Shown: positions 41,071 through 44,472 of the stretch, piece by piece
Layout: every line of letters begins with the position of its first letter
How positions within the stretch are numbered: the first letter of the stretch is position 1
NCBI RefSeq assembly: GCF_016811995.1
Contig: NZ_CP069159.1
Span: 310,001-374,000 of the forward strand
From: Citrobacter sp. R56
GTDB taxonomy: Bacteria > Pseudomonadota > Gammaproteobacteria > Enterobacterales > Enterobacteriaceae
Reading direction: 5' to 3'
DNA: 64,000 nt
Position numbers and translations under genes: made by a program
The notes under the pieces: generated by a model
The model's database searches: none
What the model was told of the DNA's origin: nothing
Seen by the model: the letters and a program-made list of their open reading frames with translations, nothing else

Positions 41071-41790
41071 TTAGTCAGTCAGGAGGTTACGTGAGAAAAG
41101 ATGGATGTCCACCCCGGGTTTACGCCGCCAGAGACGGGCTTTACGCGTCCCTGTCGCCGCACTTTCCCCTGTCTCTTCAAACATGCCCGACGCCTCAAAA
41201 CGGCGAATCAGACTTTTACGCTGAATGGCCTGACCCAGAATGATTTCGGTCGCCTCCTGCAACTGACCCTGGGTAAACGACGCCGGCAGACAGTAGACGG
41301 GCAGTAACGAGTACATCGTTTTTTGCCGTAGGCGATGCAGCGCTGAGGCAATGATGTTCTCGTGGTCGAACGCCAGAGGATATTCGGCAAGCTTGTCGAC
41401 CGGCACCCAGCGGGCGTCGCTAACGCTGGCGATATGCGGCGCGCAATCTTCCCAGGCGATCAGCGCGAACCAGGTGACGGTCAGGCTCCAGCCGCGCGGG
41501 TCGCGGTCGGGTCCGGAGACGGTATCCAGTTGCTCCAGCCATGAAGGGGAAACCCCTGTTTTTTCTGTCAGCTTACGTAACGCCGTCGCGCGGGTGGAAT
41601 CATCGCGTGCCATATCAATAAAACCGCCAGGCAATCCCCAGCGCCCTTTCTGCGGCTGCTTTGCCCGTTCGACCAGCAGGACACACAGCGTTTGTTCATG
41701 CAGGGTGAACAACACGCTATCCACTGTGACCAGGGGAGAAGGAAAGCGGCTGGCATCGTACTGGTTCAGATAGTCGGCTTCGGTTGTCAT
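41071..41790 (-). CDS. nrtR: NrtR-type NUDIX-domain transcriptional regulator
   Basis: A 239-residue protein: an N-terminal NUDIX domain (about residues 15-140) and a C-terminal winged-helix-like domain (about 150-230, TEIILGQAIQRKSLIRRFEASG). The Nudix box (residues 55-80, GGFIDMARDDSTRATALRKL then TEKTGV) has lost most catalytic acids: R replaces the first Glu, and REUxEE reads RKLTEK. This points to a ligand sensor rather than a hydrolase. NrtR proteins repress NAD-metabolism genes and release DNA on binding ADP-ribose-like ligands. It is divergent from prs-nadV. The start at 41790 (MTTEADY) was preferred to one ten codons upstream. Confidence 0.85.
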   Translation of the reverse strand: MTTEADYLNQYDASRFPSPLVTVDSVLFTLHEQTLCVLLVERAKQPQKGRWGLPGGFIDMARDDSTRATALRKLTEKTGVSPSWLEQLDTVSGPDRDPRGWSLTVTWFALIAWEDCAPHIASVSDARWVPVDKLAEYPLAFDHENIIASALHRLRQKTMYSLLPVYCLPASFTQGQLQEATEIILGQAIQRKSLIRRFEASGMFEETGESAATGTRKARLWRRKPGVDIHLFSRNLLTD

Positions 41791-41919
41791 AAGGCACTCA
41801 CGGTGATGTGGAACGTTCACAAGTGTACCAGCACAACATCAGGCGGCAAGGCGCGTTTTTTTCCATTACTTATCAGCTGATTAACTTCTCTGTGAAAAAT
41901 TAATCAATTTTGCGCTTGC

Positions 41920-41970
41920 TTAATATGTGTCTTAAGGACATTATTAATTGTGTCGAAGGGACACAATTAA
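41920..41970 (+). promoter_or_regulatory. Two tandem NrtR-like operators before prs-nadV
   Basis: A perfect dyad TTAATTGTGTC-GAAGG-GACACAATTAA occupies 41944-41970. A related imperfect one (TTAATATGTGTC-TTAAG-GACATTATTAA) lies at 41920-41947. Both have a GTGTC-N5-GACA core, with centres about 23 bp apart, near two helical turns. They end 14 bp before the prs start and would overlap its promoter. The divergent NUDIX regulator is the likely binder. Confidence 0.72.
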
Positions 41971-41984
41971 GGGCGGGATGAGAT

Positions 41985-42842
41985 ATGAGCGAAAAATTGA
42001 CATTAACGCTGGATGAGCAGGTCTACGCCATTGCCAGCGGTGTTTTTCCGGATGGCGCTGTCTGGCTGAAGGTGACGGAGACGTTACCGCCCTCCGCTCG
42101 TCTGATGCGCATTCGCGCAGCGGCGATGCGTGATATGAACGATTTCATGCTGCTGGCGCAACTGGTTGAGGCGGTACGTCATCAGACGGATGTGTTGGTG
42201 AGTCATCTTGAACTTCCCTGGCTGCCGTGGGCGCGTCAGGACCGCCATATGGTTACCGGTGACAGCTTTGCACTGAAAGTCTTTGCCCGTCAGCTCAACA
42301 CGCTGAAGTTCGACAAGGTGAAAGTGCTCGACCCGCATAGCGACGCTGCAGCGGCGGCGATAGATAACATGATCGCTGTGCCACAGGAAGCCTGCCTGAT
42401 GCAAAGCGCGACTCTGCGCCGTCAGTTTCAACAACATGCGCTGATGCTGGTGGCACCGGATGCCGGGTCGCTGAAGAAAATCGATGCTGTGGCCAGAGCC
42501 GCAGGGGCAGCAGAGTACGCCATTTTGAGCAAAAAACGCGATGTGGCGAGCGGCAATCTGACCGGCTTCTCGCTGGTGGCGGGAGACGTGAAGGACAGGG
42601 ATGTGCTGATTGTCGACGACCTGTGCGACGCGGGCGGCACCTTCATTGGTTCGGCGCAGGTGTTACGTGATGCCGGAGCGCGCAGTGTCAGTCTGTACGT
42701 GACGCATGGCATCTTCTCGAAAGGTGTTGAGCACCTGTTTGCCAATGGCATTGATGCCCTCTACACCACCACCTCGTTGGCTGCACCGACGCTGGCGCAT
42801 CCGCAGCTTGAACTTATCGACATTGACGCGATTTACCGCTGA
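41985..42842 (+). CDS. Short PRPP-synthetase-like enzyme of the NAD module
   Basis: A 285-residue relative of ribose-phosphate pyrophosphokinase, about 30 residues shorter than PrsA. Kept features are ARQDR (about 85-89), a DPHSD version of the usual DLHAE motif (about 105), APDAGS, and the PRPP-binding loop VDDLCDAGGT (residues 210-219). It should make PRPP, or a related pyrophosphorylated ribose compound, for NadV. It is not the housekeeping prsA. It starts behind two operators and ends 13 bp before nadV. Confidence 0.85.
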   Translation: MSEKLTLTLDEQVYAIASGVFPDGAVWLKVTETLPPSARLMRIRAAAMRDMNDFMLLAQLVEAVRHQTDVLVSHLELPWLPWARQDRHMVTGDSFALKVFARQLNTLKFDKVKVLDPHSDAAAAAIDNMIAVPQEACLMQSATLRRQFQQHALMLVAPDAGSLKKIDAVARAAGAAEYAILSKKRDVASGNLTGFSLVAGDVKDRDVLIVDDLCDAGGTFIGSAQVLRDAGARSVSLYVTHGIFSKGVEHLFANGIDALYTTTSLAAPTLAHPQLELIDIDAIYR

Positions 42843-42855
42843 GGGAGACAACATA

Positions 42856-44346
42856 ATGAAAATGAATCCAATTCTGGCTATCGACGGCTACAAAGTCTCC
42901 CACCGCGTGCAGTATCCGCAGGGAACCACCCGGGTGTATTCCAACTTCACGCCGCGCAGCGATCGCTATTTTCAGTCGCCGTTGCCGGACGGCAAGTTGG
43001 TGTTCTTTGGTCTGCAGGGCTTTTTACAGTGGTTTCTGGTCGATCTGTTTAACGAGGCCTTCTTTGCCCGTCCGGAAGACGAGGTGGTCAACGAATATAA
43101 GCAGGTGATGGACAGTTATCTCGGTCGCGATGCCGTCGCCGTCGATCATATTCGCGCGCTGCATCAGTTGGGCTACCTGCCGCTGCATATTAAGGCGCTG
43201 GATGAAGGCACTAAAGTGCCCATGGCGGTACCGGTTCTCACCATTATCAACACCAAACCCGAGTTTTTCTGGTTGGTAAATTACCTGGAAACTGTACTGT
43301 CGGCGGAACTCTGGAAAGCCTCAACGAACGCCACCATTGCTCACCATTACCGCAAAATTTGCGCGCATTGGGCAGAGAAAACCTGTAGCAACCTGACGCA
43401 TCTCGATTTTCAGTGCCATGATTTTTCGTTTCGCGGCATGGCCGGTCTCCAGGACACCATGCAGGCGGGCAGTGGGCATCTGTTGAGTTTTAAAGGCACG
43501 GATAGCATTCCGTCGCTGTTGTATGCCCGTGATTACTACACCGACGGCGACGCCTATTTTATCGGCGCCAGTATTCCGGCGACCGAACACAGCGTGATGT
43601 GCATGGGCGAGCGCGAACATGAGATTGAAACGTTCCGTCGGCTGATTGTCGATCTTTACCCGCAGGGTTTTGTGTCGATAGTGTCTGATACCTGGGACTA
43701 CTGGCAGGTGCTGACGGAGTATACCCGTGAACTCAAAAATACCATTCTGGCGCGGGAAGGGCGGGTGGTCTTTCGCCCCGACAGCGGTGATCCGGTGGAG
43801 ATCCTTTGCGGCACCGGGATGGACGAGGATGATCGCGCCGACCGCAGCCCACAAGAGAAAGGATCGGTGGAAGTGCTGTGGGAGATTTTTGGCGGCACGA
43901 TCAATGAGAAAGGTTATAAGGTGCTCGACCCGCACGTAGGGTTGATTTATGGCGACTCCATCACCCTTGAACGGGCGAATGAGATCCTACGGCGGCTGGA
44001 GGCGAAAGGGTTTGCCAGTTCGAACGTGGTCTTCGGAGTCGGTTCTTTCACCTATCAGTACAACACGCGCGACACCTTTGGTTTTGCGATGAAAGCGACC
44101 TGGGGAGAGGTCGACGGCAACGGCCGTACAATCTTTAAAGCGCCGAAAACCGATAATGGACTGAAACGTTCTGCCCGCGGATTGCTGCGCGTTGCGCGTG
44201 ATGAACAGGGCGAGTTACGCCTGCACGATGAACAAAGCTGGGTTCAGGAGCAGGAGGGTGAACTGAAGACGCGTTTCCTCGATGGGGCACTGTTCAACCG
44301 CGAACATTTTGAACAAATCCGCCAGCGGCTGGCGACGCAGCGCTGA
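42856..44346 (+). CDS. nadV: Nicotinamide phosphoribosyltransferase (NAMPT-like)
   Basis: A 496-residue enzyme, close to the length of human NAMPT. Visible family features are YKVSHRVQYPQGTTRVYSNF at the N-terminus, RGMAGLQDTMQAGSGHLLSF then KGTDS, the His corresponding to the catalytic histidine (H245 in PATEHSVM), and VVFRPDSGDP for phosphoribosyl binding. It should form NMN from nicotinamide and PRPP. I placed the start at ATG 42856; the open frame extends upstream into prs but without support. E. coli lacks this gene and recycles nicotinamide through PncA/PncB. Confidence 0.93.
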   Translation: MKMNPILAIDGYKVSHRVQYPQGTTRVYSNFTPRSDRYFQSPLPDGKLVFFGLQGFLQWFLVDLFNEAFFARPEDEVVNEYKQVMDSYLGRDAVAVDHIRALHQLGYLPLHIKALDEGTKVPMAVPVLTIINTKPEFFWLVNYLETVLSAELWKASTNATIAHHYRKICAHWAEKTCSNLTHLDFQCHDFSFRGMAGLQDTMQAGSGHLLSFKGTDSIPSLLYARDYYTDGDAYFIGASIPATEHSVMCMGEREHEIETFRRLIVDLYPQGFVSIVSDTWDYWQVLTEYTRELKNTILAREGRVVFRPDSGDPVEILCGTGMDEDDRADRSPQEKGSVEVLWEIFGGTINEKGYKVLDPHVGLIYGDSITLERANEILRRLEAKGFASSNVVFGVGSFTYQYNTRDTFGFAMKATWGEVDGNGRTIFKAPKTDNGLKRSARGLLRVARDEQGELRLHDEQSWVQEQEGELKTRFLDGALFNREHFEQIRQRLATQR

Positions 44347-44374
44347 TTCACCTCGCCTGGTTCTCAGGTAGCAG

Positions 44375-44464
44375 ACCGGATGGCGACGCTTCAACGTCGC
44401 TATCCGGTAATCATTGTGAATCAGTCCGTAGGCCGGATAAGGCGTGAAAGCGCCGCCATCCGGC
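44375..44464. repeat. BIME of two REP units after nadV
   Basis: Unit one has ACCGGA ... TCCGGT ends (44375-44408) around GACGCTTCAACGTC. Unit two runs GTAGGCCGGATAAGGCG ... CGCCATCCGGC (44428-44464). They lie between the convergent 3' ends of nadV and yheS. Confidence 0.85.
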
Positions 44465-44472
44465 AATCACGG

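Follow-up and report, generated by a model that had tools for sequence, protein, structure and literature searches.

A resident cassette of Citrobacter sp. R56 as a probable NARP1 module with its own NrtR-type repressor

Gene content of the yheT-yheS interval

We analyzed a window of 64,000 nucleotides from Citrobacter sp. R56 (GCF_016811995.1, contig NZ_CP069159.1, positions 310,001 to 374,000), in which three open reading frames (ORFs), all uninterrupted, lie between yheT and yheS. These are a regulator gene, nrtR, and, divergent from it, a pair annotated as prs and nadV, which we call adps and namat after the ADP-ribose pyrophosphate synthetase (Adps) and nicotinamide ADP-ribose transferase (Namat) of the nicotinamide adenine dinucleotide (NAD)-rebuilding system NARP1 (Table 1). 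The end of adps is separated from namat by 13 bp. The nrtR frame starts with ATG, with an alternative GTG possible 30 bp upstream. Pfam assigns NUDIX and NrtR_WHD to nrtR, Pribosyltran and Pribosyl_synth to adps, and NAPRTase and NAMPT_N to namat. The flanking ORFs match PRK10985 and PRK10636, which we take to be YheT and YheS, respectively. No nicotinamide mononucleotide (NMN) adenylyltransferase gene is found inside the cassette. The genome measures 4.71 Mb, and the Namat it encodes shares 97% identity with the one in Citrobacter sp. Awk 4.

An initial annotation of this DNA had described a trio of NrtR, Prs-like and NAMPT-like genes at this interval, and had noted that E. coli carries no genes there. 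ORFs, Pfam domains and neighbor matches confirm the trio; neither megablast nor distant blastn gave a match for the cassette in 20,395 E. coli records.

Table 1. Features of the cassette, in window coordinates
Feature	Position	Strand	Description
nrtR	41071..41790	-	ADP-ribose-responsive repressor homologue, 239 aa; Nudix sensor with degenerate box and NrtR winged helix
adps (annotated Prs)	41985..42842	+	ADP-ribose pyrophosphate synthetase homologue, 285 aa
namat (annotated NadV)	42856..44346	+	nicotinamide ADP-ribose transferase homologue, 496 aa
NrtR operator candidate 1, TGTCTTAAGGACA	41928..41940		in promoter spacer
NrtR operator candidate 2, TGTCGAAGGGACA	41951..41963		23 bp from candidate 1
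possible adps-namat promoter	41916..41944	+	-35 TTGCTT / 17 bp / -10 CATTAT, read by eye

The nadV-like gene carries the Namat selectivity clamp

Judged by its sequence, the nadV-like gene is a Namat and not an ordinary Nampt. Its closest PDB chains are 9W5X and 9W5W, the Namat of SPbetaL1 (564 bits), followed by 9KE8 (453 bits); Nampt chains rank below 9KE8 and reach at most 222 bits (codes of the Namat structures from PMC12774641). Identity amounts to 52.7% with SPbetaL1 Namat, 33% with Xanthomonas Nampt and 31% with the Nampt 6TAC. The selectivity clamp of Namat consists of a helix motif, GSX-phi-X-phi-X-phi-TRD (SCH), and a stacking residue on a loop (SCL) (PMC12774641). In the window protein the SCH motif reads GSFTYQYNTRD, with aromatics at positions 3 and 7 and the same letters as in SPbetaL1, and an Arg stands at SPbetaL1 position 40, in agreement with the SCL rule that we applied (Arg, or Lys/Tyr with a stacking residue after it). 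The published NAD-contact sites of SPbetaL1 Namat (PMC12774641) are identical at 19 of 20 positions; the single difference is Ala to Ser, at a site where Ser is found in 38 of 40 Namat rows. Position 392 is aromatic in 40/40 Namat rows vs 0/21 Nampt rows, and position 396 is Tyr or Phe in 38/40 vs 0/21.

The phylogeny agrees with these residues. For a quick tree of 63 rows, with the Shimodaira-Hasegawa-like approximate likelihood ratio test (SH-aLRT) as the sole support and without bootstrap, we drew 28 of 80 Namat loci (27 in the Adps tree), picked for spread, and added L004, L036 and L038, leaving out L049 (a fragment) and L050 (the same gene as L038). The tree parts a Namat side of 42 rows from a Nampt side of 21 rows (SH-aLRT 100). 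The window protein and all 8 phage Namat rows fall on the Namat side; neither a place in the Nampt clade nor a clampless SCH, the features of the Nampt/NadV class that depends on phosphoribosyl pyrophosphate (PRPP), was found for it. Two clampless rows, PDB 9KE8 and L037 (GAQTYQRNTRD), the latter from a same-order genome that may belong to the Pasteurellaceae, also sit inside the Namat side, and the NadV of L037 / L179 has no adps neighbor. This NadV and 9KE8 are possible reversions to PRPP use, and as such a natural control for the clamp.

The prs-like gene groups with Adps

The prs-like gene is best read as Adps, given its tree position and diagnostic residues. A single branch with a support of 100 separates 18 bacterial and 2 archaeal Prs from 39 Adps. 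S119 is present in 39/39 Adps vs 1/18 PrsA and 0/2 archaeal Prs, F220 and L237 each in 37/37 filled Adps rows vs 0/20 Prs rows, and P81, found in 36/39 Adps, sets these apart from both bacterial and archaeal Prs. The window Adps carries all four. S119 is the Ser of the DPHSD motif that the initial annotation had singled out, so that this clue proved informative. The short length of 285 residues, which it had also stressed, is uninformative because the archaeal Prs 1U9Y has 284 aa, and we dropped it as evidence. G92, P117 and G190 were likewise dropped as markers of Adps because they are also present, wholly or partly, in archaeal Prs.

The phage family PHROG 619 matches the window Adps at 253 bits, and the Adps of phages Felix O1 and 7-11 group nearest to it (support 88). 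The JohannRWettstein phage, presumably the same as Bas63, is a Felixounavirus. Elsewhere in the genome lies a second, PrsA-like copy, 28-29% identical to the window Adps. Such a second copy recurs: among 18 genomes with a Namat locus, a PrsA close to the query (46-100% identity) was found in 17, and at least one further Prs copy at no more than 39% identity in all 18.

Adps and NrtR accompany Namat across phyla

Linkage was counted by blastp of ORFs (E 1e-5; NrtR over 90 bits) within about 4 kb of each locus, in the best kept 80 of 577 confirmed relatives, a set that leans towards the window's Namat and comes from Pseudomonadota, Bacteroidota, Cyanobacteriota and Planctomycetota. An Adps-like gene lies near 78/80 Namat loci, an NrtR-like gene near 76/80 and both near 75/80; of the five exceptions, L110, L115 and L129 are at contig ends or on short contigs. 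NrtR_WHD was present in all six NrtR-like neighbors checked outside the window. In a draw of 294 genomes of the family, every one of 28 full-length copies is accompanied by adps, and by nrtR within the limits of the fetched stretch; a Nampt-type gene is found in four further genomes, and in three the cassette copy is broken or partial.

As controls, we took 18 of 19 full-length Nampt-type hits from family, class and phylum draws, leaving out G367, which lies at a contig end. Adps was found near 0/18 of them within about 4 kb on each side. Ten Nampt-adjacent ORFs, picked for weak Nudix similarity, were scanned: for nine, the best match is an NMN adenylyltransferase-Nudix model (in L040 below the cut-offs), and one is an NrtR. 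Overall, the partner gene tends to match the clamp type, Namat going with Adps and Nampt often with an NMN adenylyltransferase.

NrtR and a conserved pair of candidate operators

The closest PDB matches of the window NrtR are 3GZ5/3GZ6 and 3GZ8, with 48.3% identity to 3GZ5 over 234 aa. The Nudix consensus reads REUXEE at the stretch where the window protein has RKLTEK; the box is degenerate by reading, in agreement with the initial annotation, which had called it inactive. The protein thus shows the features of its class, a Nudix domain joined to the NrtR winged helix, together with palindromes in the divergent intergenic region. A phage family annotated as MutT/NUDIX hydrolase, PHROG 1198, matches its residues 1-219 (E 2.9e-18), and phages may therefore carry NrtR-like regulators.

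Two TGTC-N5-GACA palindromes, 22-23 bp apart, lie between nrtR and adps in 31/31 enterobacterial sequences (the window and L056-L085), whereas at least one such site appeared in 16 of 9,300 base-shuffled sequences. Across the 4.71-Mb genome there is a single tandem pair, at 41928-41963, and the reversed-pattern control gave 0. The same palindrome is found twice in the same-order locus L038 and twice in each of two Marinomonas loci, there with spacings of 58 and 35 bp, and in most of the enterobacterial footprint a CTTGC stretch lines up. As expected for a repressor, the first operator candidate sits between the by-eye -35 and -10 elements, and the second lies just downstream.

A proposed self-limiting NAD recycling circuit

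Gene content, clade, clamp residues, operator conservation and synteny are the basis on which we read the cassette as a NARP1 module that is resident in the chromosome and controlled by an ADP-ribose-sensing repressor of its own, a reading to which we give a probability of roughly 77%. At low ADP-ribose, NrtR would sit on the two palindromes overlapping the adps promoter and keep adps-namat low, and probably itself as well. Once NAD is split into nicotinamide and ADP-ribose, the latter would lift NrtR off. Adps would then convert ADP-ribose and ATP to ADP-ribose pyrophosphate, which Namat would join to nicotinamide; this two-step route to NAD would need neither NMN nor an adenylyltransferase. 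The inducer would also be the first substrate, and the loop would therefore switch itself off as ADP-ribose falls. We infer both reactions, the binding of operator and ADP-ribose by this NrtR, and the source of ADP-ribose in the host.

NARP1 is a known system, whose chemistry serves phages in overcoming bacterial immunity. Phage NARP1 and one bacterial NARP1 have been published as active (PMC12774641), and further accounts are PMC13232231 and PMC11559045. Phage NARP1 (SPbetaL1; Felix O1-like phages; NrsAB of ICP1) shares with the cassette the Adps-Namat pair, the clamp motif, the NAD-contact residues and the Adps-type residues; unlike it, the cassette is chromosomal, next to yheT and yheS, and has a divergent NrtR and candidate operators. 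The NARP1 of Paenibacillus foliorum, likewise a chromosomal Adps-Namat pair, rebuilds NAD and is active in vitro and against SPARSA; the main text of that paper has 0 occurrences of NrtR and leaves the physiological role open (PMC12774641). Known NrtR regulons (the Shewanella oneidensis NrtR 3GZ6; MsNrtR, PMC6800001) resemble the cassette in their Nudix and winged-helix regulator, their palindrome by a divergent or adjacent NAD operon, and their degenerate Nudix box, but differ in that the target here would be an ADP-ribose-consuming pair. The cassette is thus a regulated variant of known NARP1, and its less known part is the control by NrtR, which was not found named together with NARP1 in the literature searched, a search that the key papers lay outside.

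The rival to be weighed first is plain nicotinamide salvage, in which Prs would supply PRPP from ribose 5-phosphate and NadV would make NMN for a host NMN adenylyltransferase, all under NrtR control. Nampt-NadM (NARP2-type) salvage indeed shares with the cassette a Nampt-fold enzyme that is sometimes found beside NrtR; it differs in its Nampt-type clamp region, in the NMN adenylyltransferase-Nudix neighbor of nine loci and in the lack of Adps at all 18 loci. Rodionov is said to have listed nrtR-prs-nadV operons as NMN salvage in 2008.

Several observations weigh against the NARP1 reading, and some of them favor salvage directly. The Prs model TIGR01251 matches Adps at 133 bits, over its cut-off of 113, and NF006629 (nicotinate phosphoribosyltransferase) matches Namat at 612 bits, over 405. 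Namat retains NMN synthesis in vitro, and a clamp transplant failed, so that the clamp alone is insufficient (PMC12774641). An NrtR-like gene also lies near 4/18 Nampt loci, so NrtR is not specific for NARP1. The Adps tree leaves the attachment point of the Prs branch unfixed, and approximately unbiased (AU) tests did not reject trees in which enterobacterial Adps is held with Prs (p 0.69 and 0.54); clustering away from the phage enzymes, which the initial annotation had named as a refuting outcome, did not occur, although these trees do not fix the exact position of Adps among its relatives. The regulator scores 227.8 bits with the NCBIfam equivalog NF050029, below the cut-off of 400, and by this comparison it is a relative, not the equivalog itself. 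A consensus promoter and terminator scan of the region called none, the by-eye promoter included. ADP-ribose releases MsNrtR from DNA at a dose printed as 50 mM (PMC6800001), which is far from a plain physiological signal. Finally, the only kptA match in this genome, for a gene of ADP-ribose metabolism considered below, is a fragment.

What speaks against salvage is that the clamp region is Namat-type and not Nampt-type, that the cassette is devoid of the NMN adenylyltransferase matched by 9/10 of the Nampt-adjacent ORFs (a set picked for weak Nudix similarity), that its Prs-like protein falls outside all 20 Prs rows, and that the genome already has a PrsA-like copy. We consider salvage improbable. 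The one-step NMN salvage that the initial annotation had given as the plain reading is thereby disfavored, and its second option, a phage-style NARP1 chemistry for prs-nadV, is supported by the tree, the clamp residues and the synteny.

The cassette tracks its chromosomal neighbors

Across the enterobacterial loci, Namat identity to the window tracks that of yheS (rho 0.886, 19 of 30 loci) and of yheT (rho 0.881, 23 of 30 loci), both statistics ignoring shared ancestry. A phage remnant is less likely because cassette identity tracks the flanking genes; with yheT and yheS at its flanks and identity tracking both, the cassette does not have the setting of one carried by a phage or mobile element. 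The three partial copies among the 294 family genomes differ in their surroundings. The tail in L177 lies between yheT and yheS and that in L176 about 2.3 kb from yheT, while L175 (G030, a genome rated 49% complete) has neither gene within its 10 kb. In L175 the broken namat has adps- and nrtR-like stretches next to it; the other two are namat tails only. An old resident cassette with repeated loss fits these observations, if not in every detail.

The initial annotation had also raised a phage-style role, and the genes could be phage-derived anti-defense genes left in the chromosome, where they would either counter the NADase immunity of the host itself or be maintained by a mobile element. 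Phage records that match the Namat query number 1,936 (Nampt-type included), the Adps nearest to that of the window are those of Felix O1 and 7-11, and the PHROG 1198 match indicates that NrtR-like proteins may occur in phages. However, an NrtR gene was found in 0/8 phage NARP1 loci, within the stretch fetched, two of the three remnants lie at or near yheT, the ORFs adjoining the cassette are yheT and yheS themselves, and identity follows both. A phage derivation is thus the least probable of the explanations considered, and we regard it as very unlikely.

One record filed as phage deserves mention. CAKLQF020000015.1 (L004), listed as Acinetobacter phage MD-2021a, has adps-namat-nrtR among genes annotated as cellular and has Acinetobacter chromosomes as its neighbors in the tree; the record resembles a bacterial contig. 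Around the locus itself, REP-like inverted repeats were seen by eye at 44370-44465, in the gap between namat and yheS. In L059, L061, L065, L067 and L073, a common four-gene set replaces yheS 3' of namat; in L059, these are malonate decarboxylase genes (PF16957; MdcB-like).

Neighboring genes of ADP-ribose metabolism

In some Bacteroidota loci and in the same-order genome G432, the trio is accompanied by KptA (PF01885), NADAR (PF08719), ADP-ribosylglycohydrolase, macro, microbial PARG, DUF4291 or calcineurin-like phosphatase genes. At least one such neighbor, or an ORF of 136 aa, was found by blastp within about 4 kb of 16/50 non-enterobacterial Namat loci, of which 5 had supplied query proteins (Pfam was checked on examples); the count is 14/50 when two loci are set aside whose sole hit is the phosphatase or the 136-aa ORF. 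No such neighbor was seen at the 30 enterobacterial Namat loci, at the 18 Nampt loci or at the other 34/50 loci. KptA consumes NAD and yields an ADP-ribose phosphate (PMC9503650); a chain of KptA, macro protein, phosphatase, Adps and Namat would therefore close an NAD cycle in RNA repair. The same source describes operons that are built around ADP-ribosylglycohydrolase, have regulators of the Nudix or WYL type and are predicted to sense ADP-ribose (PMC9503650).

These neighbors bear on what the module is for. Its main role may be to clear ADP-ribose or its derivatives, arising from RNA 2'-phosphate removal or de-ADP-ribosylation, rather than to restore NAD after immune attack; this would keep the NARP1 chemistry and is compatible with our reading of the cassette. 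The contrast of 16/50 Namat loci with 0/18 Nampt loci is in its favor, as is the distribution of full-length kptA, present in 7/28 cassette-bearing vs 23/266 other family genomes (Fisher p 0.0145, ignoring phylogeny; partial hits, 5 of 35 in the family, were left out). Pulling the other way are the 30 enterobacterial and 34 other loci without such neighbors, and the genome at hand, which beside its kptA fragment has one NADAR gene and one macro gene, both elsewhere. We hold this role tentatively, at somewhat short of even odds.

A broader proposal, which we see as evenly balanced, is that the nrtR-prs-nadV operons of several phyla form a general circuit for recycling ADP-ribose to NAD, with ADP-ribose both signal and substrate, serving RNA repair, de-ADP-ribosylation or recovery from NADases; on this view, phages would have borrowed NARP1 and lost its regulation. 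The common annotation prs-nadV would be re-read as another chemistry. If this holds, many genomes credited with NMN salvage would in fact use the two-step route to NAD, and could afford immunity or repair reactions that deplete NAD and would be costly without such a route. A repressor of the NrtR kind on an ADP-ribose-consuming pathway gives the open role of bacterial NARP1 (PMC12774641) a direct test by simple assays.

Two smaller observations concern the same neighborhoods. In Pseudomonas phage K8, a macro-like ORF (L140:4395-4871, E 3.6e-11) lies close downstream of the phage Namat gene. ORFs of 136-138 aa (L118:6125-6532, L130:1135-1548) lie near 5/80 Namat loci; with no Pfam match for the one tested and no NCBIfam match for the two tested, they are candidates for a protein of the ADP-ribose pathway.

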